Part shown: positions 7,108 to 61,300 of the stretch, in pieces | How positions within the stretch are numbered: the first letter of the stretch is position 1 | Layout of the letters: every line of letters begins with the position of its first letter | NCBI GenBank assembly: GCA_025917655.1 | Contig: CP084619.1 | Span: 3,887,001-3,951,000, forward strand | Direction: 5' to 3' | Origin: Chlorella sorokiniana | Taxonomy: Eukaryota; Chlorophyta; Trebouxiophyceae; Chlorellales; Chlorellaceae | DNA length: 64,000 nucleotides | Made by a program: the position numbers and the translations under genes | Notes under the pieces: model-generated | The model's input: only the letters and a program-made list of their open reading frames with translations | Told to the model about the DNA's origin: nothing | The model's database searches: none

Positions 7108-7750
7108 CTCGTCAGCCGCCGCTGTCGCGCCGCCACCGCAATCTGCTCAGGGCTGACAAGCACTCAGGGCCTGGGTGTGCACGCTGTTTGAGGACGCCTG
7201 CACGCAATTGCAAGGCGAAGCCCACGTTCAGAAGCTAGAGCCAGCGCATACGACAGCAGGCAGCAGCATGCTGCGGCAAGCGGCCGCCAAGCGGCGCCGG
7301 CCTGCCCCTTGGGAATGCTGTGCCAGGGTGGCGATTGCCGCCAGGCATCGACTGATTCGTCATCATATATTGTGAAGTTGGAGACAAGCAACGAGGCCAA
7401 CTTGCAGCAGCTGGCGGTGGCCGGTTGCAACGCGACGGTACGCACGACCCTGCTCGCTGACCTCATATCAAACCATGAAGTAGAGCACACAGCGACCGCG
7501 CTCCTTCAAAACCAAAGAACACAATGGGCAGGTGATCAATCACCTCCTCAAACGCTGCTATAGTGCGATTGAAACGAAAAATATCATTCAGCATTCATGT
7601 GTCTCTGCCGATGTCGCCGTCGATAAGTCAATCAGGCAGCCTGGCAGCACGCCACCTTTCTTCTGATATTTTTTCCTTACCTTGAGGCCCATTGCTGCCC
7701 TTTGCTGTCGACATACATGCTCTGACATATTCCACGACTTGTGATGGGCC
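7108..7750. promoter_or_regulatory. Divergent intergenic region between NUP188 and CSK
   Basis: About 640 bp separate the NUP188 start (7107, -) from the first likely CSK exon. The right part (about 7350-7740) is visibly more AT-rich than the flanking genes and contains no convincing coding frame. It should hold both promoters; no TATA-like element could be assigned with confidence. Confidence 0.4.
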
Positions 7751-10264
7751 ATGAAGGCCATTCGGGCCCTGTCTCACGCAAGTCCGTCTCGTCTCTCCTC
7801 CGCCCCGCACTTTTGTGTCTGGCAGGCCCTTTACCAATGCCGCCTGCCTCTGAGGCATCGCCAGATTGCGTGCTGCGCAGCCACGGCAGGTGCGGCCTTT
7901 GCCACGGCCCGTCTTCTTGCTTCTGCCGCTGAACTGGCTTCTTGAAGCGACGCTGTCACGCCTTTGCAGAGAGTTCGGCAGAATGGAGCCGCCTCACTGG
8001 CAAGGCGAGCGTGACAGACAGTGCTGAGGCGTCCGCCGGCGTGCGCTCGCTCCTTCTAGACGAACTTGTGCAGGCAAGGCCCGAGCCTGGGCACCTTACC
8101 TCTGCAGCCAGCATGACGTGTTGTAGTACACCGTATGGCATGCGCTGCAATGGGGCAGGCGACTGCAGTGCAGGGCAGAAGGGGTGGCGGATGCGTGTTT
8201 GCATTATTGTTCCAACCGCTGCTGGCGGGGTCCACCTGGACCCGTCGCGGCCTGTTCCCCGCCTGCAGGCCAGCTCCGAGCTGCAGGAGCTTTGCTTGCA
8301 GCAGCTGAAGCTGCTCACCACAGCGCTGCAGCTCAGCCTGCAGGCGGTGCTGACCAGCAGCATCTCCATCGATGAGGAGGTGGACGAGGAGGCGCTGCGG
8401 CAGCACATGCTCGCCGACAGCGACTGCCTGCGCAGCACCGTCTACTGCCGCGCGCCGTCCAGCCTGCAGACGGGGCAGCTGCAGCTACAGCTGGTTGCTG
8501 CCTCTGGCGGCAGCAGCACTTTGCAGCCGCCGCCGCCGCAACAGCAGCAGCGCTTCCTGTTCCTGGGCCAGGATGGGATGGCGGGCGGCAGCCTGGCGGA
8601 CCAGGAGCAGTGGATCCTGGAGCAGCAGGTCATCGTACTGCCCGACTCGGGTGGTCTTGTACTGCCGCTGGCACACGCCGGCTTCCTGGTGGGCTTGCTG
8701 GTTGTGGAGCGCTGTGCCGCGGGGGAGCAGCAGCCTCAGGGCATGCCTGCGAGACAAGCAGGCGCAGTGGGCAACAGCAAAGCGGACACGGGCGGCGGCG
8801 ACGGCGGCGCCGTGCCAGCGTGCCTGCTGTTCCGCTCGGCAGAGCTGCAGCTGCTGAAGCAGACAGCCGCGGTGCTGGCCCTGGCCTGCGCGATGGACCT
8901 GCGAGCCGCGCTGGAGCGTGTGGGTGCTGCGTACCGCCAGCGCCAGGCGTCGGCGCTGGTGCAGGCGGTGAGCTGCACGCTGACCAGTGTCACGCCGCTG
9001 CGGAGCCTCTTCTGCTGCTTGCGATCACGCGCGTGGCGTAACAAAGCCTCCAACTTGGCTCCCACTCATCACTCGTGCGACTGCTCCCCCGACAGGCCAA
9101 GAAGCCGCTGAGCGTCATGCGCACGCTGGGGACCATGCTGCTGCCCCGCCTGCAGCCCGGGGAGCCTGACAGAGACTTTGCTCAAGGTGTGCCGTCGCCT
9201 GCGCCGTAGCCTGCAGGCTGCGCTTGCCCCCGCCCGGGTCTGTGCAGCGATGCAACATGCAGACATTGCAGCCAAGGCTGTTGTCCCTCCCTTTTTGGCT
9301 GCAGGCATCTTGGAGCAGGGCAGCCGGCTGCAGGAGGTGGTGCAGCAGCTGCAAGCAGCCCTACACCCGTCTGCAGCTGCGGCAGTCGTGCCCTCGGCCC
9401 TGCTGCAAGCAGGGGACGGCCGGCGGCAGCGCAAGGCCTTGCCCCAGAACAGCAGCAGCAGCGGCGGCAGCAGCAGCAGCAGTTCGGACGACAAGTCTGC
9501 TGGGCAGTGGCAGCTTTTGGAGCCTGGCGCGGGGCGGCCTGCGTTGCCCAGCAGCAGCATCGGTCGCGACTTCCAGGCCATTGAAGTGAGCACCGAGGAA
9601 CCAGCCTGCAGCCAGGCTGGGCCCGGGTCCCAGCCGCCCGACGCGGCTGTGCCGTCGAGCGTAAGCGGCAGCAGCAGCATTGTGCCGGTGTTTGGCAGCA
9701 GGGCCTCGGCCGACCTGCTGAACGTGCTGATGCCGCTGCTGGCCTCTGCCAGCAACTTTGCTGCCGTGAGCGGCGTCAGCTTCGCGATGGCCGAGCCCAG
9801 CAGCGGCCATGCAGATGGCAGGCCAAACACCCTGACCAACCGCGGCGGGGCAGCCACAGGCGCGCCCCGCCAGCCGCTGGTGCTGCCCGCTGTGGAGGTG
9901 GCGGTTGGGCCCGGCAAGCTCAAGCGCATGCTGAGCCAGCTCATCGACGGCGTGATTGCCTGCGCGGCGAGGGGGACCATGTGCAGGCCTCTGTGCTGCA
10001 GCAGCAGTGGCAGGGGCGCCCGGCGTGGCGGTCTCCCTGTGCTGCTGCCGCAGCCTGGCGCATGGCGGCGGCGGCAGCATCGCCGGCCTGCCGCACCCGC
10101 CCATGCAGCCCGAGTTTGCTTTCTTGCGCGGCTCAGCAGCAGAAGCTAGTGGCTACTTTGAAGTGAGCTCCAGCGCCTTGCCAGGCGGACAGCGCCTTAG
10201 CAGCAGCGCCCTGACAGCCACGCTGTGGCTGCCCGTGGTGGCCCAGGACGCAGGCTGGACCTGA
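7751..10264 (+). CDS. CSK: Chloroplast sensor kinase (CSK) homologue
   Basis: Modified two-component sensor kinase, known in plants to act in the stroma and couple plastoquinone redox state to plastid transcription. Matches to plant CSK in order: ELQELCLQQLKLL (8278 on; plant DFQRLCLEQLDLF), a GAF-like region ending VLPLAHAGFLVGLLVVER, then LACAMDLRAAL. The next exon (9096-9186) gives AKKPLSVMRTLGTML (plant RGPLSTIRTLSKML), followed by GILEQGSRLQEVVQQL, then an ATPase-like part with VAVGPGKLKRMLSQLIDGV and a C-terminal ATLWLPVV. The phospho-acceptor His of ordinary histidine kinases is absent at the PLS.MRTL position, as in land-plant CSK. A Ser/Gln-rich linker lies between. A frame change near 10.05-10.1 kb is probably an indel. 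An open frame from 7751 looks like a transit peptide (basic, Ala/Ser-rich), but its splice to the body was not resolved, so the start is uncertain. The stop at 10262-10264 is well supported. Confidence 0.72.
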
Positions 10265-19561: not shown

Positions 19562-22500
19562 TCACTCGGGGGTGTGAGGTGCTGGCTCTGCCTGGGCCGC
19601 TTTGCTCTGCTGCTGCCGCTCATTCAGTTGCCGCACATATGCTAGCATGCGACGCTCCAGCTCCGATTCCCCCAGGGGCACCCTGCACGTGCCGCCGTAC
19701 TGCTCCGGAAGCTGCTCCGCGGGCACCCACTGCAGCAGCGCCGCCGCCGCCTCGACGCGCTGCTTCTTCGTGAACAGCTGCAGCTGTTCCCGCGTGCGCC
19801 GGGGTATCACGGCCGCCAGCACCTTCCAGATGACACCGCCCCAGGCGGGGGCGTTCAGCAGGAAGGCCTGTGAGCGAGGGGGCCGCATATTCAGGGGTCA
19901 GGGTTCAGGGGCCGCCAGGCCGAGGAGCAGCGTGCGGGCCCTGGCCATCAAGGCTGCAGGGCCTGTGACAGCTCACCGCACCGCAGGCTACAATGCCATC
20001 AAACAGTTCCTGTACATGCAAGACGTTCTTTCTTCGCTGGCCCCCCCCCCAGCCACCCCTGCACACAGACACACACACACACACACACACACACCTTGTG
20101 CAAGCGCTGCGGATAGTTGACCGCCAGCAGGGCGCCCCCACTTGCAGGTACCACTTGAAGGCGGCACTGGACACGTCCCGCATGGTCAGACCCTCCAGGT
20201 CGATGATCTTGACTGCGGGCCGGCCGGTGGTTGGGGGTGGCGGGGATGGAGTGGGGCGTGTGCTGGGGTGTGTGTGGCGGTGGAGAAGCCGGCGCGCGCT
20301 GGCGCGGGCAGCTAGGTTGCCGCAACAGCAACGTGGCGGCTTGCAAGGGAGAAGAGGCAGAATCGGCAGAGGAGAGAGCCGAGCCATCTGTGCAGACCTG
20401 CCTGCCAGCGCGCTCCCCCGCCGCCCCCCCCGCCCCCGCCCCCGAGGCCCCCGGGCTTTAATCTCCCCGGCGCACCCGTCTTGCCCTGGGGCAGTGGGCG
20501 GCGGTCCAGCACCCTGAAGGCGTACTCCATGCAGAAGAAGAGGTGGTGCAGCAGCTCGCGCTCGCTCACGCCTGCGGGGTGGGTGGGTGTGGGTGTGGGT
20601 GTGGAGGGGGTCGTATGTGAACGGAAGGGAGGGCTCAATCGGCGGGCATCCTTCACGGTGACAGGATCGCTGCACCGCCGCCAGGGCGCAGGCCTCAGCG
20701 GCGTGCCGCCCGGGCTGCGCAGGCAGCCAGCCATGGCCGGCAGCGCGGGCGCAGCGACGGCAGGCTGCCCCACCCGCCGCGCGCAGCTCCTCAAACGCGG
20801 CTCGCCAGCGCCCGTGCACTCCACCTCCAGCAAGCAGTCCGCCTGGCTGCTCCAGCAGTAGAACACCTGCGGGGTCGGCCACAAGGGGGCGTGGTTGGGG
20901 CTGGTTGGGGCCTGCAGCGGTGCAAAGCTGGACAGGCCAGCGGGCGTGGTCGTTGGGGGCCGGGATGGATGGATGGAGCCAGGGGCTCCTGCTCCCATGC
21001 TGCTCCCGTGCTGCTTGTGCTGCCGGCTCAGCAGCTCAGCGGGCCCTGCCCCTCCCACCGTCTGAACTCCGCCCCCCACCCCACCCACCCCTTCACCTGA
21101 GGGTAGTGCTTCTTAATCAGCTCGAACTTGGGCTGCGGCTGGCACACCAGGTCTGCCACGCCCTGAGCCTCCACCTGCACAAGCGCAGGCGACACCGCGG
21201 CGCCACGTCAGCCGGCGAGGCGGGGCACGCCGCGGCCGCAGCCGCCGGCCACCGCCAAGCGTGGGCACCGGCCCCCAGCCCGCCCCCATGCCCGCGAGCC
21301 GCGAGCCCTGAGCCCCGTTCAACGAGAGCAGCCGCGCGCGCAGGCTGTCGCCGGCCGGCACGCCTCCCCGTGCCGCCGCACCCACCCATGCCACCACGCC
21401 ACCCCCTGCCGCCCCACCCACCCATGCCACCATCTTGCGCAGCGCCTCGTACGCCTTGTCCCCCTGGCCCAGCCCCACCAGGAAGCGAGCGGCCACATCC
21501 GCAGACAGCACCCCCGGGTGGGCAGCCACCAGGCGCTGGATGGCGGGCGGCAGCTCCGGCGCGCCGCCGTCCAGCGGCAGCGGCAGCGCCGCCGAGGGCG
21601 CCGCCGGCAGCGGCGAGGAGGACACCACGCGCTGCACGGCGGGGGCGCCCGCGCCGCCCTGCCGCGACTCCGCCACCAGCACGGCGTGCAGCAGCGTGAG
21701 GCGCCACCAGCCCGCTGGCGGCGGGGCCTGCACAGGCCAAAGGGAGGCGGCACAGGCGGCAGGAGGGCAAGCTGAGGGGAGGTATCACGCCTCTCATACA
21801 AGCAATGTGTGAGCGGCCAGTCGGCAACGCAGGAATCCGCCGGCCGGGGCAGCCTGCTGCAGCGGCGGGTGCGCTGATTGGTTTTGGCTGCCTGACAAGA
21901 GCTCACCTCGAGCGGGGCAGCTGGCGGCGGCGGCGGCGCCCGCGCCTTGAGCTGCAGCACCACGATCGCCGCCAGCGCCGCCATGCAGCTGAGCAGGAAG
22001 GCGACGCTGTGCAGCACCCTGACGGGGCCCCGCCGCCGCCCAGCAGCTGCAGCCAGGCCGCCAGCAGCGGCACCGCCAGCACGGCGGCCAGCGCTGCGCG
22101 GCCGCTGGCGGCGGCGGGCGGCGGCGGGCTGCTGGAAGAGGCGCGGTGGTGGGGGCCGGGCGCCACACGGCGGCAAACTGCACAATGACTTCCAGGTTGG
22201 CGGCCGCGGCGGGCGGGGCAGCTGCGCCGCGCCCGCGGTGCGTCGCCGCCACCACGCAGACGGGCGCCCCCTGCCTCATCCGACTGCCGCAGCTGCTCCT
22301 CTGTGATGGTGGCCACGGCTGGGCCCAGCGGCGAGTGCAGCCACACCCGCACCGCCAGCTGGCAGCGGGGAGCGGCGGCGGCCTTGCCGTCGTCCTCAGC
22401 CCGCCCCCCGCGCCGCCGCCCCGGGCACCTGCGCCTGGGGCCGGCGAGCACGCTGCGACCGGGATGTCCAGCGGCTGCTGCAGCCGCGGGAAGGGGCACA

Positions 22501-42300: not shown

Positions 42301-43286
42301 TTACATACTCGAGCGTCCCACTCTCATAGCGGGCAAGCGCGCCAGCCCACCGCGGGCGCGCCAGGTGGCCCCCGCCCTCTCGCCCCACCATCCCCTTCCA
42401 GGGCCCTCCCCACCCCCAGGCCCACCCGCCCACCCACCCACCGTGCCGTGGTGCGCCAGGTCCAGCCCCGCCAGCAGGCCAGCCACATCCGCTCCCCCAG
42501 CTCCAGCCCCGCCGTGCGCAGCGCCACCGACAGGTCGTGCACGCTGATCTCGCCGTCGGCGTCGGCGTCGATGAAGTGGAAGACCTGAGCGGGGGTGAGA
42601 GGCGGCGCGTGTGCGTGTGTGTGCGTGTGGGGGCGGGGGGCGACTGTGCGATGTGTGTGTTCGAGTGGGAGCGGGGGCTGTGCGCTGGGTGTGGTTGAGT
42701 ACGAGTGTGCGTGCCAGGGGTGGTGGCAGAAATGCGGCAGTGGCAGTGGCGGTGGACTGGCACGTTGCCACCTGCAGGAAGCGATGCCTCAGGTAGGGCG
42801 CACCGTCGGCCGCAGGGCCAGGCAGGCCGCCCACCTTCCGCAGGCCCCCAATCTCTTCGTCGCTGAGGTGGCGCGCCGCGACGGTCATCAGCAGGCACTT
42901 GATGCGGTTCTGGTGCGTGAAGTTCTGCATGCGGTCGATGATCTCTGCAGGGGCCACGGGGCGCGGCAGCGGGACCCATGCGCCGCCATTTGTACTGCTC
43001 CAAGGCCACTGCCAAACAGTCGAGCATCGACGAGAATGCAGCAGCGCATGCAGCAGCACAGGCGCCTTCTTCCTGGCTGCCAGCGCACCAGTGCTGAGGG
43101 GCAGGGTGGCGGCTTCCTGCGTGATCCAGGGGTGCAGCAGGGCCTGCGCCACGCTCATGCGGGTGGAAGGGTCCTTGTCCAGCAGGCGGCACACAAAGTC
43201 CTTGGCCGCCGCGGAAATCTGGTGCCAGGGCTGGTAGTCAAAATCCTGGATGAGGGAAAGAGAACGTGTGGGTGGGTGGGTGGGTG

Positions 43287-43327
<41 letters not shown>

Positions 43328-45500
43328 GGGGGGGGGGGGCCGGCGGCGGGGGGGGCATGGGCTCAGCGGCCATCTTGGCAGGCAGCAAGGATGCCCTTCA
43401 TTTGCGCAGTCGCATCAACCACTTGCGGCAGCCCGGCATGTGATCGACCTCAACCTTGGCTCACCACCGGCCTGTTGAGGATGCGATGGAAGATAATTTG
43501 GTCGGAGGAGCCCCAAAAGGGGGAAGCCTGCAGCAGCAGGCCAGGCGGCGGTGCAGCGCCTCTGGGCAGCAGCACGGTCAACGCTGACGTTCGGGTCTGC
43601 CATGCCGCCAGTGCGCAGAGATCGCAGGAAGCAGCTCGAGCTATGACAACGTGCAGGCTTTTGGTTGCTGCGCCGGCAGGGTCGCAGTCTTCACCCCGCA
43701 CGTGGCAGTCCTCACTCACCTGACAGCAGCACATAAGCGATGGTGCCCACAGACCAGGCATCCGCCTCAAAGCTGTAAGCGCCCTTCAGCACCTCAGGGG
43801 CCACATAGTATGCTGACCCAACGCGGCTGCAGCGCACAGACGGCGTGTGGGGGGGGGTGTGGGGGAGGGGGAAGGGACCAGGGGCCAGCATGTTGCGACG
43901 TGCACAGAAGCAGTGACGGCGTGGCAGCTTACTGGCGACACAGCCGCCCCTGTGCGTGCGCCTCACCGGGCCCACCCTACCCGTCCCCACCTGTGGAAAA
44001 TGCCATCCCCTCCTCGCACAAACTTGGCCAATCCAAAGTCGATGGCCCGCAGGTTGTTCGCCGACAGCTCCCCGGGGTGCAGCAGCAGGAAGTTCTCGGG
44101 CTTGAGGTCTGCAGGCAGGGGAGCAGCGACCGGTGGAGCTGCTCAGCTGAAATATCGTGGCCCGTTTGGCGCCCCCTCTGCCGTTGCGAGCTCGCTACAA
44201 GCGGCCGAATGCCACCGCGCACCCCTGTGTATGATGCCCTTGCCGTGGCAGTGCTGGATCACCGACAGCACGGCGGCGGTGATGGACGCGGCGTCTGCCT
44301 CGGTGAAGAACTTGCGCTCGATGACCACGTCAAACAGCTCGCCGCCCAGGCACGCCTCCTGCCGTGGGGTGGAACAGAAGCAGCTGCAGTTGTGCAATGC
44401 AAAGCATGGCACAGGCAGCCGCCCACCCAGTGGCGGCAGCCCAACAGCAGTCCATGGCGCTGCGGGAGGCTGCAGGCCGCTGTCGGCCTGTAGGCTCCCC
44501 ACACCCTCAGCCCTGCTGGCTCCCGGTGGCTGCAGCCTGCAGGGGAGCGCCAGCCCCGCCCGCCTCCCTCCCAGCGCCGCCGCGCCGCAGCCGAGCGCAG
44601 CCGCGGCGCCTGCTCACCATGACTATGAAGATGTGGGAGGCGTCCTCCCACACCTCATGCAGGGCCACCACGTTTGGGTGGTCACACACCTGCAGCAGGA
44701 GCAGCACACCTGGCGCCACATGGACAACAACACTAGCCAGCATGCAGCTATGGAGCAGAGCAGGCAGGGACTGCATGCCAGCAGCTGGACAGACACAGAA
44801 TCATGAGGAGGATGGGGTGGTCGGCGATGGTTCCGCAACATCTACTGGTGCGGTGCCGTCAAGCGGCGGCATGCTGGCACAGCCAGCCCAGCTCCGCTCA
44901 CCGCCGCCAGCACCAGGATCTCCTCCACGGCTTCCTCCCGCTCATACTCGGGGTGCAGCTTGTCCAGCGCCTTGATGGCGACAAACTCGCCGGTGTGCTG
45001 GTTGCTACAAAGATAGGTGACCCCGTAGTAGCCTGCAGCATGCGAGTAAGCGTGGTAGGCGAACGGGCAACATCAGCAGCCTCAAATGCGTGATCTGCGG
45101 CCCATATGATAGCCTGTGAAGCACAAAAGTTCTCAAATACCACCGTCCTGCTGCGCACCTGTCCCAAGGACCCTGCAGGGAGGTCAGCAGAAGTTGAGGT
45201 ATACTAGATCTCAAAATGTGACAGCGTTCGCCATCAGCGCATTACATGCAAACACCGCCAAGCCTGCGAGGCCGCCCTCTGGGAAGCGGCCTAAGACCGG
45301 CGGCGCGCTGCCAACGCTGGCGACAAGCTTGAACTGCGTCACCCTTGGCGGCGCAACGAGAGCTCACTTGATGAAGCGGTAGCACGTGTGGGGATCCTCA
45401 AAGTGCCAGGGTTTGCCGTGAAGGGCCTCACTGCCAGGTGCCTCATCCTTCCACCCTCGACACCTGGGGGAGCGCTGGGCCTGGACCATCTGGATAACAA
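39342..45500 (-). CDS. Calcium-dependent protein kinase (CDPK) with extended EF-hand region and Ser/Pro tail
   Basis: Ser/Thr kinase fused to calcium sensors. Kinase blocks (minus strand): [67 protein letters not shown] joined to [44 protein letters not shown] and [16 protein letters not shown]. These are typical CDPK sequences with catalytic Asp and DFG present. A junction region ([19 protein letters not shown]) precedes EF-hand loops [12 protein letters not shown] and [12 protein letters not shown], plus two weaker hands. Further EF-like segments follow at 40.4-41.0 kb: [26 protein letters not shown] (canonical) and [11 protein letters not shown]. The last is an ~280-residue Ser/Pro-rich tail with repeated PPSPI.L.P motifs. 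One frame break at 40680-40684 (AAAAA on plus) sits inside the canonical EF loop. The 5' exon is uncertain (~45.4-45.8 kb). It could instead be two genes, split near 41.5 kb. Confidence 0.68.
43291..43339. repeat. (GT)n tract followed by a 15-base G run, in a CDPK intron
   Basis: Pure GT dinucleotides from 43291 run directly into a homopolymer of about 15 G ending at 43339. It is preceded by GTGG repeats (43266-43286). It lies in an intron of the minus-strand CDPK. The length of the G run is likely unreliable. Confidence 0.9.
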
Positions 45501-49957: not shown

Positions 49958-50129
49958 CAGCGCGAACGCCTCACGCGCCCGTTCTCCTTGCGTTTCTCGT
50001 CCCACCTTCTGCGTCGCTCTGCTCCTGCCCTGCTTCTGTATTTTCATTCAGTCATCACTGCCATTCTTTCCTTTGTCATTGCTCTGCGCAAAAGTGGTAG
50101 GTTGAGAGGCTCTGTGCACAAGGGTGGTG

Positions 50130-50899
50130 TCAGGAGGCATCAGCTGGTGAGGTATCCACTGCTCCAGGGCACCACGGGCCCTTGTGCAAAGAAAGCGGGC
50201 TGCTGGCCGGGGCCAGATCCTGCTTCTTGAGGCTGCAGGAGCCCTGTTCATATATCCTGCCGGAGCCATCATCACTGCGGAGGGAAGAAAGGGCTTTTGG
50301 TAAGTGTTGGGGCCTGCAACTTCGGTTGCCTCCTTCCAGGTCGGGTAGCGTTCGCAAAGCAATCTGCTGATTGCTGCTCGGCTCACTCACCAGCCCCCGG
50401 ACACAGGGCAATGTACAAACACGTTGCAGCCCTGCTGCTGCTGGCAGCGTGTGCAGCAGCCGGCGGTGTTGGGCACGCCGCGCAGATTGCTGATCACGTC
50501 GCCGCGTGCGTTGAAGTTTGGCAGGAGCACGCACTGCCCTGGAGGCAAGCCAGCTGGCGCAGACCCAGTAGCAGCGGCGGATGGGGGCGGTGTGGAGGCT
50601 GCAGCCTCTGGCGACGGCGGTGAGGCTTGGGCGGGAGCAGGTGAGGAGGGCTCGGGTGCTGGCGGAATCAGCGTCTGCACAGCAGCCTCGGGCGCAGGCG
50701 GGGATGGCGGCTGCGGCGGGGCAACCTCGGCTGCCGGTGCTGGGCCTGGGGAGGCGGGTGGCTGAGTTCCAGGGACTGGGAGGGCCAGCTGGGAGGGCCT
50801 GGCAGCAAGAGAGCACCCAGCAGAAGCTGTCAGCAGCAGGGTTAGTAGGGCAAGCCCAGATGAGTTTCTCTTGGGTGACGGGCACACCATGGTGCTCAT
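50130..50899 (-). CDS. Secreted protein with Pro-rich linker and PAN/Apple-like domain
   Basis: Two exons: 50899-50391 and 50274-50130, GT-AG, in phase, no frame break. The N-terminus MSTMVCPSPKRNSSG is followed by the hydrophobic LALLTLLLTASAG and CSLA, a signal peptide. A ~100-residue linker rich in Pro, Ala and Ser (PPSPPAPEAA, PPAPEPSSPAPAQ) follows, as in algal wall glycoproteins. The C-terminal domain has the PAN/Apple Cys pattern: GQCVLLPNFN, NTAGCCTRCQQQQGCNVFVHC, then across the intron GGCDDGSGR, QGSCSLKKQ and GPWCPGA. This fold binds carbohydrate or protein outside the cell; ligand unknown. The intron was chosen because it rebuilds the conserved HCP..GGCDDG join. Start could also be at 50890. 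Tail-to-tail with the MoxR gene and divergent from the coiled-coil gene at 51602. Confidence 0.76.
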
Positions 50900-51601
50900 T
50901 TCAAGTATGTTTTCCACGACAGGAACTATACTCGAGGCGTGCCAGCATTTTTGAGAAGAAAAGGGCCCAAAGGCGGGCGGCGGCAGTGGCGGGACAGGGC
51001 GCCGTCCTGGTCTGATGGCCACGCAGGCTCCCAGACCCCAATATATGGCGCCCTCGCTTCAGGAATCGTTGTCCTGCCTGTCAATTACAATGCCTTGTCC
51101 AACTTGACCCGTCACGCTATTTACACTCCAGTGAAAGGCTCATTGCCTCTCGGCTGCCTCTTCTGCCGGGGACCGCGGGCCACCCAGTGCACATTTTGTC
51201 TTGTGCGGAAGCTGCTTCGACCCGGCCTTGCTGCGTGATAGAGAGGGCTGCCGAGCAGCACGCTCCTCTGGAAGCTGTGCGTTGCCCGCGCTTCCCGCCT
51301 GAACCACGCGTGCAAGTGTTGGATGAAGGGTTCTAGCGTGGTTACTGCAATGCTCAAGCCAGCGGTGGGTATGCGCCTCGCGGCGCCTGGGTGCCCCGCC
51401 GCTCGGCGCCCTCTTCGCGGAGGCCCCTGCCGCGCCGGCGCTTGGCGGTTTGACGACCTGACCACCTCTCCCACAGGTGTGCCACTGAAAAATGCGGCCT
51501 GTGCAGCACCGCTCTGCCTTGTGCTTTACGGGTCCTCGCATCCTGCTTTACACGCCTGCTTTACCACACTCCGGGAAGCAGATGCCGCGAGCCTGACCGC
51601 C
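50900..51601. promoter_or_regulatory. Divergent intergenic region, PAN protein / coiled-coil membrane protein
   Basis: About 700 bp between divergent starts. Frames here (for example 51323 on, +) have no domain and no clear splice into the next gene, though an upstream 5' exon of the latter cannot be excluded. Promoters expected; none defined. Confidence 0.35.
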
Positions 51602-52423
51602 ATGTCAACTGTGGACCAGCTGTGGGCGGAGCAGATGCGCGCCATGGAGCGCGCCCAGTCTGAGATGGCCGAGATGCAACGCATGGTGAGCGCAATGGCC
51701 AAGCTCATACTGCGTGCCCGGCCTGTGCTGCTCTGTGCAGCTGCGCTGCCGCCGCTCCTCCCAGCTCATTGACACTACCCTTGCCCTTCCCTCAACACAG
51801 ATGGACCAGCGGTTTGAAGCAGCGCAGCGGGACGCGGATGCGCTGCAGCGGGCGGGCACGAGCGGGCGGCAGCTGCAGCAGGAGCAGCTGGTTGGGCCGG
51901 GCGGGCCGTGCGGCTACCGCTGGCAGCGATCCGAGCGGCAGGAGGGGCCAGGTGGGCAAGCGGTGGGATTGCTGCAACAACGATTTCTTTAAGCGGAGGC
52001 TGTCTGCGAGTGTGGACGCCCGGCGTGTGGGTGTCTAGCAACCTCAGCAGCTGGGCCCCGCTCCTCCTTCCTGCTGCAGGCGGCTCCTTCCGTGCCTACC
52101 ACTCGGAAAGCTTCACCGTCATTGGGGTGCCGCCCAGCGGCTGCAGCACGTACGCCCAGCCTGCCGCCGCGCAGTTTGGCGGCCTGGCGGGAGCGCCGCT
52201 GCTGGCGGTGGCGGCCCTGGTAGGGTTTTGGGCGGCCGCCGTGGCGCGTTTCCACCAATGTTTCCACCTCACCATCTACAAGGAGCAGCACCGCTGGTGG
52301 CTGCTGCTGCTCTGGCCCCTGCTGCTCCTGTTCTCGTCCGAATTCAGGCAGCAGTTCCTGGCAGCGGTGCGCGGGCGGCAGGCCGGGCCCGACGGCGGCG
52401 ACGGCTTCGTACCCAGCAGCTGA
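51602..52423 (+). CDS. Coiled-coil membrane protein, family member 1
   Basis: Exons 51602-51685, 51801-51951, 52080-52423; 579 nt, 192 residues, all junctions GT-AG and in phase. N-terminal amphipathic coil (MSTVDQLWAEQMRAMER, then FEAAQRDADALQRA), a Gly-rich loop, and a middle segment SFRAYHSESFTVIGVPPSG with one Cys. C-terminal membrane region in two helices: LLAVAALVGFWAAAVA and WWLLLLWPLLLLFSS, separated by FHQCFHLTIYKEQHR. The tail is basic then Gly/Asp-rich, ending FVPSS. No named family recognised. Fragments of its last exon recur at least three more times over the next 4 kb, so it is the apparent intact parent of a local duplication cluster. A TGTAA poly(A)-type signal is present at 52488-52492, 65 bases past the stop. 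Confidence 0.66.
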
Positions 52424-52487
52424 TGCTCTCTGCTTGATTTGTGCTCCTTGCCTCCCTTCGCACTGTGTTGTACTGTACCTGTATGAC

Positions 52488-52492
52488 TGTAA
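52488..52492 (+). terminator. TGTAA polyadenylation-type signal
   Basis: TGTAA is the usual near-upstream poly(A) element of green-algal nuclear genes. This one lies 65 bases after the stop of the 51602 gene, at a typical distance. Confidence 0.45.
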
Positions 52493-52568
52493 ACGATCAG
52501 CGAATCCTCATGCGAAGGTCTTACGGCAAATTTTGCAAATCACAGCAGGCTTTGTACCGACCATTCCA

Positions 52569-52776
52569 GGAAGTGAGCACTGAGCCGCCCCAAGGGCCTT
52601 GAGCCCCGCCCTGCATCTCCAGAAAGCTGTTATCGCAGGGTGCTCGCCCGGGAAGGCCCCTGTTAGCCCGTGGGATGGCCTCCCAGGCAAGCAGGACAGG
52701 AGCGGGAGGCGGCGGGGCACCCTGCGGCGGCGGTATCAGCAGGCAAGGAGTGCTTCACTTGTGCATGGCCATCCTC
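52569..52776 (+). repeat. Segmental repeat R, copy 1 (decayed MnSOD leader)
   Basis: Shares with R2 (55311) and R3 (56799) the order ggaagtgagcactgagccgc, aagggccttg, gccctgca, gggtgctcgcc, gggaaggcccctg, cccgtgggatggcctcccag. It ends with gtgcatggccatc, the same start-codon context as MnSOD at 57017, but the frame then runs to a stop within a few codons. So it is a duplicated MnSOD 5' region without the gene. Confidence 0.8.
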
Positions 52777-53508
52777 ATTCGCCCGGTATGATTCGATTTG
52801 CTTTACGATTGCAATGGGATCGTAACAAGCAGGCGTGTCGCCCACAACATAAATTTTGACAGACTATTCAGCAAACCAACTTCTGCAAATGCAGTTACAA
52901 TACAATTCGGAGATGTCAAGTTTGACTTTACGGGTGGTTTCAATGTCTCCTGGTCGTGCCATTCGCTGAACGAGGCGTCCTGCAGCGGTACACCTGTGGT
53001 GCGATGCTGGTGTACAACCAAATCCACCGTTTCCTTCCTGAGGACGAAGTTCGCCAACCCCACCGCCTTCGACCCAGAGCTCTCCGAGCATCAACCGCTA
53101 GCAGGCAGAACCTGAGGTGAGGGCCAAAGCAGGCGAGGGGTGGGCGTTTGCGGACCTCAGGGGCTACAGTTCGGCTTCAAGTTGCGAGTTGCGGTCGGAC
53201 GCGAGCTCAGCGGGCATTCTGCTGCCTGTGCGGGTGACCATGATGGGCTTGAAAGCCTTCCTCCTCTGGTTTGCTGGTGTCCTTGCCGCAGGAACAAGCA
53301 TGATCCAGGCCTGCCTTCGTGGCGTAGTTCGTGGACAGACGTGGCGCACTTTGGCGCCTGCCGGTGGACGCTCTGCTTGTCCGCCTGGCTACCTACCTCA
53401 GCTTTCAACAGCTGTCTCCAAGGTGGGAGGTCTGGGGGCGCTCTGGTACCATGCATTTGCGTAGAGCTGCTCTTGTATGTGAGTGTGCGTATCAGCTCGC
53501 TCGCCGCC
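52777..53508. other. Low-GC spacer without a supported gene
   Basis: Clearly AT-richer than the surroundings between about 52790 and 53080, with frames on both strands (for example 52803-53063 minus, starting MGLANFVLRKETVDLVVHQ). None has a recognisable domain or intron structure. May be an insertion between repeat copy R1 and the next family member. Confidence 0.3.
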
Positions 53509-54447
53509 ATGCCTCCCACGCAGCAGATCAGGGGCTACAAGAACGGTCCAGCGGATGACCAAGATCTGTATAGTGCGTGCCTGCTGCTGTCGCTCGGCTG
53601 TAAAGCTTGTGATGCGTGGTGTTGGCCGGGTGCACTGCTCACCTTGTATGTTTCCATCATCATGCTTACGTTTGTTTTGCCCTCTCTGCCTGGCATGCGC
53701 CGCCCGTCCCCTGTTCCCCTGGGCAGCAACCATGGTTGTCTTTGAGCGCCTCACGTACGCCCAGGTCCAAGAGCGAAAGAAGAGGTTTGACATCACGCAC
53801 ACCGCAGTCTTGGTGCGTGTGTGTGGTGAATTGGGGATTTGATTGTTACTGTGCGCCAGCACGCTTTGCTGCCTGATGGATTGCCTTGAATGCTGCAACC
53901 ATTGCATTTGCGGTCCGGTGACTGTGCTCCTACTTTCAAAGCTGGGCATATGGAGTGTCTCCTGCCATGGCTGACTGCCCTTGTTCCTGCCTGCTCTCAC
54001 GTCGAACAAACTGGATTAGCAGATAGATGAGCCAACTCAGTACCAGCAGGTGCGTGCAGTGCACTGCACATGTGCGTTTGTATCTGGTTGCTACGGCTGA
54101 GTGCTTCCTTAATTTTGGAAAGTCTCCTTCCCAGCACCCCTCCGGCCTTGCTTCACGATGCAGCTGTAGCCTACCATCTCTTTCAGTCCTGCCCTGCCTG
54201 CCTTACCCTGACGCAGGCGCAAGCCAAAAAGTTGGCTGACGTCGAGGCGAGGCTTCGCACAGTGGAGGCGGATGTGCGCCATTGGAAAAATACTGCAGCT
54301 GACGTTGAGAAGAGGCTTTACGAAGCGGAGAGGGATGTGCGCTTCTGGAACAATTTCGCAACTGGCGCGGTCTGGACAAGCGCCTTCATGGGGGCAAGCT
54401 GTATTGCCGGGTTCATATTGATCAAAGTGTTGGAGCCTGTGACGTGA
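53509..54447 (+). CDS. Coiled-coil membrane protein, family member 2
   Basis: Exons 53509-53572, 53727-53812, 54023-54049, 54217-54447; 408 nt, 135 residues, phases consistent, no frame break. MPPTQQIRGYKNGPADDQ begins it, then FERLTYAQVQERKKRFDITH. A tiny 9-codon exon (IDEPTQYQQ) follows, then a regular coiled coil with an internal repeat: LADVEARLRTVEADVRHWKN and AADVEKRLYEAERDVRFWNN. It ends with one membrane helix (WTSAFMGASCIAGFILIKVL) and a short tail. No named family recognised. A tail-anchored coiled-coil protein is the simplest reading. The segment from its second intron to the start of exon 4 is duplicated at 55530-55936, and its coiled-coil type recurs in the inverted repeat at 56.2-56.4 kb. 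Confidence 0.64.
53835..54216 (+). repeat. Direct duplication D, copy 1 (introns 2-3 and mini-exon of member 2)
   Basis: Collinear with 55530-55936. Shared landmarks: aatgctgcaacc, gtgctcctactt, ttgttcctgcctgc, the mini-exon ending taccagcaggtgcgtg, tgagtgctt, cagctgtagcct, and tgacgcag at the acceptor. Identity by eye about 70-75 percent with small gaps. Confidence 0.75.
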
Positions 54448-54939
54448 TACTGGCTTTGCCCGGTCGGGGCTTCGCTCCTCAATGTCCCCTTCATCGATGT
54501 ACATCAGTCATGCTTGTTGTATACGCCGGTCCTGTTTCTTATATCTGTGGTTCGTGACAACCAGAGTTCATTGCGCCAGTGCGCTGCTTTGTTGGGCGCA
54601 CAGCCTCCCATATCCAGTGTCCCAAATTTATGCATTGGCTGTCTCTTGGCGCGCACGCCCTGCATGCCCTTCTCAACTGTATTTTTGCCACTCCTAAATG
54701 TTAAATCGCTGTACCTGAGCAAAGTCAAAAGAACGCTTTGAATGATTCCGTAGCTGGATGGGCGGTTTTCCAGCCTCACCTCAGAAGTGTCTGATCTACC
54801 CTGCTCCCATCATGCCCTTGCTACTGAGCAGGCTGCTGTGTGGCGTGACGTGCCCCAGCCAATCTGGCAGTAAGTACGCCTCGCCCGCCACCGCACAGTT
54901 TGGCTGCCTGGTAGGCCGCTGCTGATGGCGGCTGCCTTG
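54448..54939. other. Spacer between member 2 and the decayed membrane-anchor copy
   Basis: About 490 bp, relatively AT-rich, 3' UTR of member 2 then sequence with no coding pattern. Around 54830-54920 (caggctgctgtgtggcgtgac, cgcacagtttggctgcctgg) it begins to resemble parts of the MoxR 3' exon and of member 1. Confidence 0.3.
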
Positions 54940-55176
54940 GTTGGGTTTTCAATGGCTGCCGCGGCGCACATCTACCACACTTTCCACCTCACCATCTACA
55001 CGGAGCAGCATTGCTGGTGGCCGCTGCTGCTCTGGCCCCTGCTGCTGCTGTTTTCCTCCAAGTCCAGGCAACAGCCCCCCGGCGGCGCTTACCGCCGGCG
55101 GCAGGCTGGCCCGGCGGCATGGGCGGGGCAGATGGCGGCGGCTACTGACTTCGTCCCAGCAGCTAATGCTGCATGA
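54940..55176 (+). pseudogene. Decayed copy of member 1 last exon
   Basis: The frame reads MAAAAHIYHTFHLTIYTEQH then WWPLLLWPLLLLFSSKSRQQ and ends FVPAANAA, matching member 1 FHLTIYKEQHRWWLLLLWPLL and its FVPSS end. The upstream exons (coiled coil, Gly loop) are missing. Possibly still transcribed but truncated. Confidence 0.7.
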
Positions 55177-55310
55177 CCAATGCTCAGTGCAGTCCCCTGC
55201 TGTACTCCACCTTTTTGCCTGTACGTTGTTCAACGAAACCTTATGCGGGCTTCTTTGATCCAAAGGCCTTAAAGTACTTTGGCAAGTCAAAGCAAGAAGG
55301 GCCCGGTCCC

Positions 55311-55510
55311 GGAAGTGAGCACTGAGCCGCCACAAGGGCCTTGGACCTCGCCCTGCACCTCCAGAATGCTGCGTTCACAGGGTGCTCGCCTGGGAAGGCC
55401 CCTGCTGGCCCGTGGGATGGCCTCCCAGGCAAGCAGGACAAGAGGCAGGGGAAGGCAGCAGGCCGCGGCTGGGCACCCAGGCCGCGGCGGCAGCGGCAGA
55501 GGGGCCCGAG
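55311..55510 (+). repeat. Segmental repeat R, copy 2
   Basis: Same block order as R1 and R3, closest to R3 (both preceded by tgatccaaaggcctta and ggcaagtcaaagcaagaa). It ends in gagtgcgtcacgg, corresponding to the MnSOD leader, but the start codon region is lost. Confidence 0.8.
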
Positions 55511-55529
55511 TGCGTCACGGGAAGGGTTG

Positions 55530-55936
55530 GGGAGTTGAATGCTACTGTGCGGCTTGCTGCTGATGGAGTGGCGTGAATGCTGCAACCCCTTGCGTTGCTA
55601 CGTGTGCTGTGCTCCTACTTGCGAAGCTAGGCACGGAGTGTCTTCGGCCATGATTGTCTTTGTTCCTGCCTGCCCTCGTGCAAGATCAAACTGGATAAGC
55701 TGATAGACGGGCAAACACCGTACCAGCAGGTGCGTGAAGTGTGTCTGTGTGTAATTGGTTGCAGTGCCCGTCTGTACGGTTGAGTGCTTGCTTTTCGTGG
55801 AACAATCTCTTAGTTGTGACAATCTCTTTCCCATCGCGATTTGCACCCGTCCGATCTTGCAGCATGGGACAGCTGTAGCCTCCATCACTCTCAAACTTGC
55901 GCTGCCTGCCTTGCCTGCTTTACTTTGACGCAGATG
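55530..55936 (+). repeat. Direct duplication D, copy 2 (fragment of member 2)
   Basis: Partner of 53835-54216. The mini-exon is recognisable (LIDGQTPYQQ followed by gtgcgtga), as are both flanking introns. At the acceptor where the coiled-coil exon should begin (tgacgcag, 55936), the sequence instead enters the inverted repeat. So this is a broken copy of member 2. Confidence 0.75.
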
Positions 55937-56071
55937 CAGGCTGGCCCGTCCATGCCGCCGGGCCAAGCCAGCCGCCGGCGCACCGCCGCCGGGGTATGGA
56001 TGAAAAGAGGAGCAGCAGGGCCCAGAGCAGCAGCAGCCACCAGCGGTGCTGCTGCTTGTAACCTGCCAGTA

Positions 56072-56317
56072 TCAGGTTGCAGGAATGAATCTGTACTCGG
56101 CAGCGCCAGGTGACCCCAGGGCGCCTAAGACGCCAGCCAGGTAGGACGCGCCCAGTGCTTTCGTCTTCCAATCAGCGAGCTGGTGCACGTCTACCTCCAC
56201 TTTGTTGAGCTTTTCTTCAAGCTTCTTCTCCACTTCGTGGAGCTGTTCCTCAAGCTTCTTCTCGACATCGTCCAACTTTGTGCTTTGCGCTTGCGACGTA
56301 ACAGGCGCAAGGCACAA
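56072..56317 (-). pseudogene. Coiled-coil fragment in the left arm (minus strand)
   Basis: Open frame with heptad-like DDVEKKLEEQLHEVEKKLEE, then LADWKTKALGASYLAGVLGA (weak membrane helix) and a stop after YRFIPAT. It begins at the palindrome centre, so it has no upstream exon or promoter of its own on that side. A rearranged piece of the same family. Confidence 0.55.
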
Positions 56318-56319
56318 AG

Positions 56320-56541
56320 TTGGACGATGTCGAGAAGAAGCTTGAGGAACAGCTCAACGAAGTGCAGAAGAAGCTTGAAGCAAAGCTCAACAAAGTGGAG
56401 GTTAGGCGCCCTGGGGTCACTCGGCGCCATCGTATACAGATTTCTTCTTGCCACCTGATACTGGCAGGTTGCAAGGAGCAGCACCGCTTTTGGCCTGCTG
56501 TTGCTTTGGCCCCTGCTGCTGCTGTTTTTGTCCGAACCTAG
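56320..56541 (+). pseudogene. Coiled-coil fragment in the right arm (plus strand)
   Basis: Mirror image of the left-arm frame: MDDVEKKLEEQLNEVQKKLE, then the frame runs into a shifted anchor segment and stops. The LADWKTKALG part is deleted, as the ~65 bp difference between arms shows. Confidence 0.55.
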
Positions 56542-56798
56542 GCAGCAGCTCCTGGCGGCGGTGCGCCGGCGGCATGCCCGGCGGCATGGACGGGCCAGAT
56601 GACGGCGGCTACAGAATTTTTTCCAGCAACTAATGATGTTTGCATGGCTAATGCTCAGTCCAGTCCCCTGCCCCACACTGCTGTACTTCACCTGTATGCC
56701 TGTACGCTGTTCAACAAAACCTCATGCGGGGAGCACCTTCTTTGATCCAAAGGCCTTAAGAGTAATTTGGCAAGTCAAAGCAAGAAAGGTCCGGTCCA

Positions 56799-57020
56799 GG
56801 AAGTGAGCACTGAGCCGCCCCAAGGGCCTTGGACCCCGCCCTGCACCCCCAGAATGCTTCGTTCGCAGGGTGCTCGCCTGGGAAGGCCCCTGCTGGCCCG
56901 TGGGATGGCCTCCCAGGCAAGCAGGACAGGAGGCAGGGGGTGAGGCTGGGACGCGGCTGGGCACCCAGGCGGCGGCGGCAGCGGCAGAAGAGGGGGCCGG
57001 AGTGCGTTACCCGTGCATGG
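56799..57020 (+). repeat. Segmental repeat R, copy 3 (functional MnSOD 5' region)
   Basis: Third copy of the block, running without a break into the MnSOD leader and its ATG at 57017. An upstream ATG at 56870 inside the repeat is in frame with MnSOD, so the repeat may also supply an N-terminal extension. Confidence 0.8.
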
Positions 57021-58040
57021 CCATCGCTCAGCTTCAGGGCTGTGCGACCCCCTCCTGCACCATCGTTCAGGTGCGGCTGCCCGATCTGCCCTACGACTAC
57101 GGCGCTCTGGAGCCGGTGATCAGCGGAGAGATCATGGAGCTCCACCACAAGAAGCACCACCAGGTATCCCTGCGGTGCAATCGCTCCTAACCAACGTTGA
57201 GAGCGGCAACGCGCGCTGCGGCACCCCACCGTGCCCTCGCCGCCCTCCGCAGGCCTACGTCACAGGCGCCAACAAGGCGCTGGAGCAGTACAGCGAGGCG
57301 GAGCAGCGCGGCGACGTCGCCGCCATGCTGGCGCTGCTGCCCGCGCTCAAGTTCAACGGCGGCGGCCACATCAACCACTCCCAGTTCTGGAACAATCTGG
57401 TCCCCGAGAAGGTGCGCAACCCTGCCGATGCCGCTGTCCAACAACACTAGTACCACAGGGCTGCCAGGGCTGTGCCGTGGGCGGGGTCCTCACAGACGCG
57501 CTTGGCATGCCCCCTGCCCCGTGCGCCGTCGCCTCCAGGACTACCGCCCCCCAGCGGCTCGCTGGAGGAGGCCATCAACGCCCAGTACGGCGACCTGGAC
57601 GGGCTGGTGGCCAAGTTCAACGCGGCGGCGGCGGGGGTGCAGGGCTCGGGGTGGGCCTGGCTGGCGTGGAGCCCCGAGGCCCAGGGCCTGGCCATCTCCA
57701 CCACCCCCAACCAGGACCCGCTGCAGCCCACCACGGGGCTGGTGCCGCTGCTTGGGGTGGACGTGTGGTGAGCGCCGCTTGGACCCGGGGAGCCAGGGGC
57801 CAGGGGGCAGGGCCGTGCCCAGCCTCCAGCCTGCAGCTTTTGAAGGCCTCCGGCTTGTGGCTGTCCTTGCTACCACCCTTTCGCCCCCTACACCACGCCA
57901 CCTGCCACCCCTCCTCCCTGCAGGGAGCATGCCTACTACCTGCAGTACAAGAACGCCCGGCCCGACTACTTGAAGGAGGTGTGGCGCGTGGTGAACTGGC
58001 GCGACGTGGGCGCCGCTTCCAGGAGGCCACTGGGCAGTGA
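57017..58040 (+). CDS. Manganese superoxide dismutase
   Basis: Converts superoxide to oxygen and hydrogen peroxide. Exons 57017-57163, 57253-57411, 57539-57767, 57924-58040. Mn/Fe-SOD blocks: [42 protein letters not shown] (the Mn-type GGGHINHS), [41 protein letters not shown]. Metal ligands: His of HHKKHH, His of NHS, Asp and His of DVWEH, all present. Two breaks: 57547-57552 (CCCCCC) before SGSLEEA, and near 58013 before RFQEATGQ. Adding one C to each gives 217 residues with every intron phase correct. The usual mitochondrial leader is short or absent from the 57017 start; an in-frame ATG at 56870 would add 49 residues. Location in the cell is therefore unclear. Confidence 0.88.
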
Positions 58041-58340
58041 AAGCGCCCAGCGCCTGCGGCCGTAGGCCTGCCCCGACTGCCCTTCCCAGCCACCGCCCTC
58101 CTGGCCAGGTCCTGTGCCTGATCAGATGCTCTTCGGCGTGCAGCGACATACTATTCCAGCGAAACATCAACAAATCAAGCGGAAAACGAGCTTTATTGCG
58201 CAAGATAGCAAGCAAGACAAGGCAGTGGTATGCAAACAGCAAAGAGCAAGATAGAGACTCCCCACCAGCAGTGGACGGCTAGCTTATGCACGGAGGGCTG
58301 CTGGACCTTCGGGGTTTGCGTGGAGCAGCAGTGGGGCGCC
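58041..58340. other. Convergent intergenic region, MnSOD / VPS13
   Basis: Only ~300 bp separate the two stops. The middle (58135-58260) is A-rich with no coding pattern. The two 3' UTRs probably meet or overlap here. Confidence 0.4.
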
Positions 58341-61300
58341 CTAGACGGCCTGCTCCCTCTGGGAGCGCCTGCTGGCCTCTCGCTCCTCGACGCTCACAAC
58401 GGTGCGCGGCACCCCAGCAGGGGGCGGGTCTAGGGAGCGCATCGGCACAAATGTGCTCAGGCGGTTGTCCACCTGTGCGGGTGTGGACAGGGGGCAGAGC
58501 TCCAGCGCCTCAGGCGGTGGAAGCGTGCTGTATGTGCTGCATGGCTGCGCTGGCGAGGCACACGGGCTGGAAACGCACGCAGCCGCCACGTCGGCGGCGG
58601 CCCTTTGCAAGGGGTTGCAAGCGGCGGCTGATCGGCCGCACACCTGCCACACAGACACCTTCCACGTCTCAGGGTGGTGCGCTTTGTGCTGGCGCAAAGA
58701 CCCTGTGCGGCTGCTGCCTGCCAGCTGCGCGGCAGCTGCCCGCAGAGCAGGCTGCGGGTCGTAGTGCCAGATGGGCGAGTTGAAGACGCCGGTGGCAGCA
58801 GTCAAATCGCTCCTGCAGGAATGGGGCGGGAAAGGGGGCGACAGCTCGTATGGAACATCAGCCGGCTGGAGAATGTTGGCTGAAGGCAGTCATGAAGGCA
58901 ATAACATGTGGCTGCAGCCTGATTTCCATGGCAACCGTAAACTAAGCTCTTTCATCATCCCAGGCCTTGAATCCCCCCAAGCCACCTCCGCTGCAAGCTC
59001 CTGGCACCGCTCGCTGCTGCCAGAAGCCATGCCTCGCGGCCAAAGCAGCCTGCACCGCCTGCGGGTGCTCTCACCTGATGCACAGGTACTCATCGGTGGC
59101 TGGCACCTCAGGTTTCCCCCGCACAACCGCCCCCAACGCGGAGTAACCGGGCGGTGCCACGGGCATCCACATCGTCACGGGCGCTGGCCGTTGTGGCGCC
59201 AGATGAGGGAATACTCCTTGGGACGCGCCACCAGCGGAGGCTCGCCCTCGTTTGCCCTGGAACAGGGGGGCACCGCGATCCGCGAGATGGCAAAGAGGGT
59301 CAGCGCACAGAACAAGGCTGCCCGCTGGGGGCGCAGGGCTGGCAGGCAACGCCATGCATCATCGCAGGCAAACGGCGCCCATTCACGCGGCTGCACCCTG
59401 TTGGGCCATGCAGGCGCCTAGCCATGCGCGCGCGCCCCTCCCGCCCCCACACACCGCACACACACACCCTTCCCTTACCTGATGTGCAGGCTGGCGTCGT
59501 CGCGGAAGCAGGGCACCGGTGTAGCGGGCGGGTCCAGGCCCAGACCCACACGCGCCCACGGCCCGGTAGCCTGGTGGGGGAAGTGGGAATGTAGTGTGGA
59601 GGTGGTATGAGGGCGGGCAGAGGGGGGGGGGGGGGATTTGAAGGGAGGCCGGGCGTGCCAAGGTGCGCTGCAGCGACGCAGGCCAAACGCGTGGCAGGGC
59701 CGGCGTGTGGCGGCGGCTTTGCCAGCACGGCCACCCACCTGTGGGCGCGGCCGGCCTCCAGAAGCTGACCACCGGCTGCTTCTTGGGGTTGGTGTGCCAG
59801 GTCAGCGCAAAGTCCAGGCACGGCATGCGGAGCGGCAGCTGCTCCACCGCCGTGCCCGCCGGCAGCCGCGTGGCGGCGTCGTGCCGCGCGCTCCACTGCT
59901 GGTTGCGGCGCAGAGGGTCCAAATAGTACTTGCGCAGCACCTGGCAGCAGTTTGGCAGTACATTGTATCGATAGTGCAGTTTAACAGCGGGCGTAGCAGT
60001 CAGAACAGAGAGGCGGAGACAAGAGGGAGAGGCCAGGCATGCATGCAGTGGAAGCCGTGGCAAGCACCGCTGCAGGCCACCCACCTGCTCCGCCTCCAGC
60101 TTGACCTGCGGCGCCTGCGGCGTATTCTCAAAGCACTTGAGCTGGTGCGCCAGGCTCTCCGCCTCCTGCTGGACACGCCAAGGCGGCAAAGCAAGAAGTC
60201 AACACCCTACAGGAGCCCTGCTTGTGGCAGGTTCAGCGACAGACATGCAGTCCTGCCTGCCGGCGGCAGGCATGCACGCGCATGCGCTGCGTCGCTCCCC
60301 GCCGCCCACCGGCTGGTCCAGCTTCCCCTTTCGGTGCACCACCAGCCGGTCTGGGTAGCGCATCTCCCGGCTCCAGCGTAGCTCTAGTGCCAGCACGTCT
60401 TCCCAGCGCACTGCAGGCGGGGGTGGGGCGGCAGGGGATCCCCCATGGGGACGCCGTCGGGCGGCCGATGCATCCACAGCAGCTGCCCGCTGCGGCGCTC
60501 TTCAAGCGACCGCCAGGGCAGCGCAGACGGGGAGCTGCTGCTGGCAGCGCACCTCGCCACTGCACCTCGCCAGGCGGCACGTCGCTCACAGCTGCAGCTC
60601 CTGTGGGGGCAGGGTGCAAGGCAGCAGCTGCATGACGAGCGGGTTCCCTGGCGCTTCACGCAGCAGGATCCGAGCAGAAGGGCCCCCGCCACAGACGCAG
60701 CCCATGCGTCGCCCGGCCTGCTCACCGATCTCGGCTGCGCCGTCCAGCTGGGTGAAGCCAGGGCGTGCACCAGCAGCAGGCCGGCGCTGGTGAGGAGGAC
60801 CACGCGGTCCTCGGGCAGCACAAAGTGCTCCTCGTAAGCCTCTGCGGGGGCGAGGAGCAGGCGCAGGCGTGGCTGGGCGGCGAGCAAGACGTCACCAAGG
60901 GCTGCAGGAGCAAGATTGAGGTCACGGTAGCTGCACGGCAGGGTTCACTACACAGGGTGGCACGCACAGCGAGGCTGAGGCACAGGCAAGGAACAGCTGC
61001 GCACCTGTGATCGCTGCCCCTGCACGCTTGCTGCGCAGCCCGGCGGGCGTGGAGAGCAGCGTGTTGCGCAGCAGGGCCTGCCCAATCTCCTCGACGCGCG
61101 ACTGCGCGGGAGCGGGGAACACGCGGCAAGAGCAGGGATGATGGGAGCGACACACGCTGCTTCAACGATTCACATTGCCATGCCGCCTAGCGCCCTTCAC
61201 CCCTGGCAACCAGCTTCAGTCAATGACTTGGCGATGCTGAGCCCCCCTCTCACCTGCTTGGTGGATCCGTCGCGCACCAGCGGCAGCAGCCGCCCTCGCC

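Follow-up and report, generated by a model that had tools for sequence, protein, structure and literature searches.

The window analysed here, a 64,000-nt stretch of the Chlorella sorokiniana genome, contains a long fold-back that lies among gene fragments next to an Fe/Mn-SOD gene. The locus raises the question of how a fragment of a coiled-coil gene came to face an inverted copy of itself across a loop of a few bases, and whether the resulting hairpin is a source of small RNAs, as had been proposed, an element with a role in splicing or coding, or a relic without function. The evidence presented below points to a real inverted duplication that most likely arose as a by-product of segmental duplication within the locus and is now decaying.

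A tandem array adjoining the Fe/Mn-SOD gene

Repeat comparison within the window reveals that gene fragments are arrayed in tandem next to the Fe/Mn-SOD gene and that this array is decaying (Table 1). Unit 1 consists of a gene that we denote gene A, followed by a copy of the 5' region of the SOD gene. In unit 2, gene B precedes a gene A tail, copied in truncated form, and another copy of the SOD 5' region. Unit 3 opens with a gene B copy truncated at its 5' end, continues with the fold-back and a further tail of gene A, the third in the array, and leads into the SOD 5' region with the gene proper. Given that the gene B homology in unit 3 begins inside an intron (55507 aligns to 53816), the first exons are absent from this unit. 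A donor-like GTGCGTG at 55730 directly follows the small internal exon of this copy, which ends at 55933 with a splice-acceptor-like GACGCAG; the inverted arm starts at 55941. Gapped identities amount to 88% for the 3' end of the tail and 84% for the intron (units 2 and 3), 82% for the gene A tail (units 1 and 2) and 71% for the gene B exon compared with the right arm of the fold-back. In the entire genome, at least eight DNA matches were detected, and all those detected lie within this locus.

Table 1. Coordinates of the window and of the array features in it (gene labels are ours)
Feature	Position	Strand	Remarks
Window	contig C2 3887001-3951000		genome of 38.8 Mb in 15 contigs
Gene A	51602..52423	+	source family of the tail KEQHRWWLLLLW...; predicted exon model
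SOD 5' region copy, unit 1	52520..52709	+	most diverged copy; AAG replaces ATG at 52624
Gene B	53509..54447	+	several exons; predicted exon model
Gene A tail, second copy	54867..55176	+	truncated
SOD 5' region copy, unit 2	55262..55500	+	ATG ORF from 55366; upstream of the truncated unit
Gene B intron/exon/intron copy	55507..55933	+	matches 53816 onward, 84% identical
Small internal gene B exon, copy	55684..55729	+	splice sites predicted from sequence
Left arm	55941..56293 (353 nt)	-	inverted copy of last exon and 3' flank
Open coiled-coil exon, minus arm	56072..56290	-	72 codons and stop
Loop	56294..56301 (8 nt)		CGACGTAA; resembles splice-acceptor-end remnants, likeness judged by eye
Right arm	56302..56598 (297 nt)	+	collinear with tandem unit; without 65 nt present in the left arm
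SOD 5' region, unit 3	56750..56990	+	presequence-like ATG ORF at 56854; gene proper carries Sod_Fe_N

The product of gene B combines a coiled coil with a short hydrophobic C-terminal tail, and its last exon showed no Pfam family above the cut-off. A Pfam search with six ORF translations yielded Sod_Fe_N alone above the cut-off; the weaker matches, mostly for the coiled coil, were judged compositional and rejected. The coiled-coil exon has a distant paralogue elsewhere on the contig that carries the window (C2:81431-81577), which is 41% identical to gene B in the match. This paralogue, on the minus strand, reads MQAQSTKLE, and the minus arm of the fold-back reads AQSTKLD.

The SOD 5' region with its presequence-like ORF thus occurs three times in tandem, twice upstream of other units. 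The copies in units 2 and 3 are 94% identical and those in units 1 and 3 are 87% identical (gapped). The ORFs starting at 55366 and 56854 encode the same 25 residues and differ by two synonymous codon substitutions, with no other changes. We take this ORF to resemble a mitochondrial presequence; an in-phase splice from it to the SOD body was sought by eye and none fitted.

Structure and uneven divergence of the two arms

The first-pass annotation had described the fold-back as a duplicated local gene fragment with arms of about 296-351 bp around a loop of about 12 nt. The repeat comparison and the arm alignments support this description, and the fold-back lies where it had been placed; the arms measure 353 and 297 nt, and the loop is shorter, with 8 nt (Table 1). 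In the gapped alignment of the arms, 253 of 283 columns are identical (89%), with an alignment score of 230 compared with a maximum of 31 among 500 dinucleotide shuffles. The perfect core, previously given as at least 26 bp, turned out to be a run of 44 bp (56312-56355), and over their inner 101 nt the arms show 95% complementarity, in agreement with the earlier figure of about 95 percent pairing over the inner 100 bp. When folded as RNA, the segment 55935-56604 yields -549 kcal/mol compared with -272 (sd 6.8) for 20 shuffles, so that, as far as the fold itself goes, the very long hairpin predicted before was recovered.

In both arms, the coiled-coil exon reaches TGATACTGGC, which is known from the end of gene B, and then joins a tail of the gene A type (KEQHRWWLLLLW...). 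Because this joint between the gene B stop region and the gene A tail is common to both arms, it is older than the inversion. The tail of the right arm and the DNA downstream of it follow the order of the tandem unit, being collinear with unit 2, which identifies the left arm as the inserted copy. With homologous arms in opposite orientation, related sequence in the same locus, and one arm collinear and the other inserted, the fold-back belongs to an already known kind, the inverted duplication of a gene fragment. Each arm has sustained losses of its own: the 65-nt loss from the right arm leaves its exon out of frame, and the left arm has a gap of about 13 nt in its tail, where the right arm and both outgroup tails retain the sequence. 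Accordingly, the same coiled coil is present on opposite strands, as had been noted, but only the minus arm carries it in frame to a stop. An error of the assembly or a fold-back read would be suggested by the tiny loop, because inverted repeats of this shape form a known class of artefact. However, 30 of the 283 columns differ between the arms, and the pieces lost are not the same in the two, so that such an origin appears extremely unlikely.

A second likeness to an acceptor followed by an exon start is seen across the loop and the beginning of the right arm, with an acceptor-like CAG (56302-56304) immediately preceding the right-arm exon. This arrangement, together with the intact exon in the minus arm, would be compatible with a role in splicing or coding, whereby the inverted copy, located in an intron that extends from the donor at 55730 to an alternative acceptor ending at 56304, pairs with the exon and controls its inclusion, or whereby a small gene is expressed from the minus strand. 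We consider such a role very improbable: the right-arm exon is shortened and out of frame, the gene B homology starts in an intron with the first exons missing, and each of the four differences within the coding part of the inner stem is non-synonymous.

The divergence of the arms is unevenly distributed. From the loop outwards, identity per 40-base window is 95, 95, 98, 73, 90, 77, 96 and 100%; the inner 118 columns account for five differences and the remaining 165 for 25 (Fisher p 0.003, with the border set post hoc). Because the outermost 47 columns are well matched as well (27/28 and 19/19), there is no smooth gradient from the loop, and simple uniform decay would not predict such a pattern. 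Coding constraint as the cause of the well-matched inner stem was rejected, given the four out of four non-synonymous differences there. Palindrome-correcting repair is sufficient to account for the uneven decay; it is also possible that structural selection keeps parts of the stem paired.

The 30 differences between the arms include 16 transitions and 14 transversions, and the transitions that keep G-U pairing are distributed as 12 on the plus strand versus four on the minus strand (p 0.077). When direct repeats outside the fold-back were compared, the five comparisons together gave 54 C/T and 35 A/G differences (some copies are shared among the comparisons and the directions are unpolarised); three of the five lean towards C/T and the two that involve the SOD 5' region show the opposite (3:4 and 4:6). 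Measured against the C/T share of the direct repeats (54/89), the G-U excess has p 0.31, so that strand-biased mutation is enough to explain it, and selection for pairing on the plus strand was rejected. Polarisation of the differences by the outgroup tails (seven derived in the right arm, four derived in the left arm, three shared, and 10 with the outgroups in disagreement) revealed no clear asymmetry between the arms. The AT skew is -0.17 and -0.14 over 52001-56000, the lowest values among the 32 steps in the window. Together with the C/T excess in three of the five repeat comparisons, this low skew may reflect strand-biased mutation.

Hairpin RNA: candidate machinery and targets

The extreme fold and the uneven decay of the stem also fit a different reading, namely a young hairpin-RNA (proto-MIRNA) locus with the SOD 5' copy at 55262-55500, 94% identical and located just upstream, as the putative promoter of a plus-strand transcript, whose stem of about 300 bp would be diced to siRNAs, some of which would pair with the gene A mRNA. 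Domain searches make RNAi machinery in this genome plausible. On contig C1, Piwi is matched by four pieces of exon size, of which one is above the cut-off alone and three together with their neighbours, and a PAZ match near these pieces falls just below the cut-off (27.8 vs 28.8 bits). The genome further contains a Dicer_dimer match above the cut-off, an RNase III match on the same strand about 4.5 kb away from it, which is below the cut-off and interrupted by one TGA, and two additional RNase III matches above the cut-off on contig C3. The combination of Argonaute-type and Dicer-type domains with the extreme fold suggests that the hairpin could possibly be diced and serve as a small-RNA source. 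PMC8059543 reports symbiotic algae of Paramecium bursaria with a Dicer homologue in which no Argonaute and no small RNAs longer than 20 nt were found, so that, as far as this account goes, the presence of one part is no predictor of activity.

For the identification of potential targets, the hairpin was compared with 21-nt windows from positions 1-51000 and from the DNA on either side of the fold-back within 51602-58065. The gene A region, counted with its introns, has 12 exact and 21 one-mismatch matches among 802 windows, all within 52277-52329; the exact matches cluster around one 32-nt stretch. The gene B region has 0/947 matches at 0-1 mismatch and 2/947 at two mismatches, and the tail region of unit 2 has two exact and 14 one-mismatch matches among 783. 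Neither exact nor one-mismatch matches were found among the 1037 windows of 52424-53480, the 664 of 55251-55934 or the 1441 of 56605-58065, and none of the 50980 windows of 1-51000 matches the hairpin at two or fewer mismatches. The earlier suggestion that the hairpin silences or tunes the genes at 51.6-54.4 kb is therefore largely unsupported: gene B lacks matches at 0-1 mismatch and those in gene A center on a single 32-nt stretch, which does not support silencing of both neighbours.

The 12 exact 21-mers common to the hairpin and the gene A region, along with the candidate machinery, are in line with the proto-MIRNA reading, but the lack of matches at 0-1 mismatch in gene B, the fall of the G-U excess to p 0.31, and the lack of any match to Rfam 15 at the gathering score in 50000-58500 count against it, and on balance we regard it as unlikely. 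A scan for bacterial-type promoters and terminators returned 0 and 0, the models being bacterial and hence uninformative for a eukaryote. What speaks for a hairpin-RNA gene, a possible but unlikely reading, is confined to its fold, the candidate machinery and a single short match to a putative target. In its most elaborate form, this would be a newborn gene in which a SOD 5' copy, placed upstream by segmental duplication, confers SOD-like expression on a dsRNA that is passed to Dicer and Argonaute and thereby tunes gene A via the 32-nt stretch, with repair or selection maintaining the pairing of parts of the stem; this form seems quite improbable.

Origin of the fold-back and comparison with known inverted duplications

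The explanation that we favor, and consider probable, is an inverted duplication by template switching in the truncated unit, followed by decay, with the present fold-back most likely being a neutral, non-coding relic. Under this scenario, a tandem array of gene fragments would have grown upstream of the Fe/Mn-SOD gene, and its third unit would have arisen as a 5'-truncated gene B copy; there, a deletion would have brought the gene A tail directly behind the coiled-coil exon. A strand synthesised leftward would then have reached the splice-acceptor region and snapped back on itself, copying about 350 nt, that is, the exon and its 3' flank, inverted and in place, before rejoining the original template at most about 20 nt from the point of departure. 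The resulting near-perfect palindrome would have decayed subsequently, the left and right arms losing different pieces.

Acceptor-like sequence lies no more than about 20 nt from either junction of the fold-back, although decay hides the exact points, and microhomology at the junctions is limited to a few bases at most (by eye). An inverted copy beside its source, two junctions near one kind of sequence and a tiny loop fit a snap-back switch with return, which we infer to be the best account of the placement of the fold-back. Neutrality and lack of function are likewise inferred and are to be weighed against the uneven decay of the arms and the minus-arm exon that is still open.

Four known systems can be compared with this locus. 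The short-range template-switch mutations of the four-point model, as presented in PMC7954356, create inverted repeats and often lengthen the sequence; like the fold-back, they place a local inverted copy beside its source and make a hairpin. The largest event given there is 128 nt, however, compared with the approximately 350 nt copied here, which counts against the template-switch account, and the junctions here are blurred by decay. The large human fold-back inverted duplications, for which PMC3907307 also invokes intrastrand fold-back, have unduplicated spacers of 766-70,466 bp in 21 sequenced junctions, whereas the event here is local and its spacer is 8 nt. In the case of MIR161, MIR163 and MIR1444, which are described in PMC5223194 as inverted duplications of target genes, the fold-back arms are extensively similar to a gene family, as they are here. 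In contrast to MIR1444, which is described there as tail-to-tail, the arms here are head-to-head, with the exon starts at the loop; compared with the MIRNA genes of that account, the gene B matches are too weak. The mitochondrial coding palindromes of Nematomorpha resemble the fold-back in that protein is encoded on each of the two arms of a long inverted repeat, but, according to PMC6649704, they are perfect and reside in working genes, whereas the palindrome here is imperfect, with one arm out of frame, and belongs to a truncated unit.

The locus is a dissectable case of a gene fragment that has become a long hairpin, with the units, the flanks, the order of events and the decay still readable. 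Should small RNAs be found, it would represent an early-stage hairpin-RNA gene with the duplicated 5' region as a possible promoter; if there are none, it would be an example of palindrome decay.

We compared the window and 20 stretches of 10 kb from contigs C1-C3, 264 kb in total (about 0.7% of the genome), with themselves (BLAST with low-complexity filter, E 1e-6, at least 60 bp, spacer up to 3 kb). Outside the fold-back locus, a single inverted pair was detected, with two matches, in C2:3400001-3410000; thus, such fold-backs are not a common background in this sample. This pair involves positions 6818-7355 and 8912-9320 of the respective stretch, with 93% and 72% identity and spacers of 2287 and 1556 nt. 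Finally, long CA/GT dinucleotide tracts beside runs of C or G are present elsewhere in the window, at 20035-20094 and 43278-43357.
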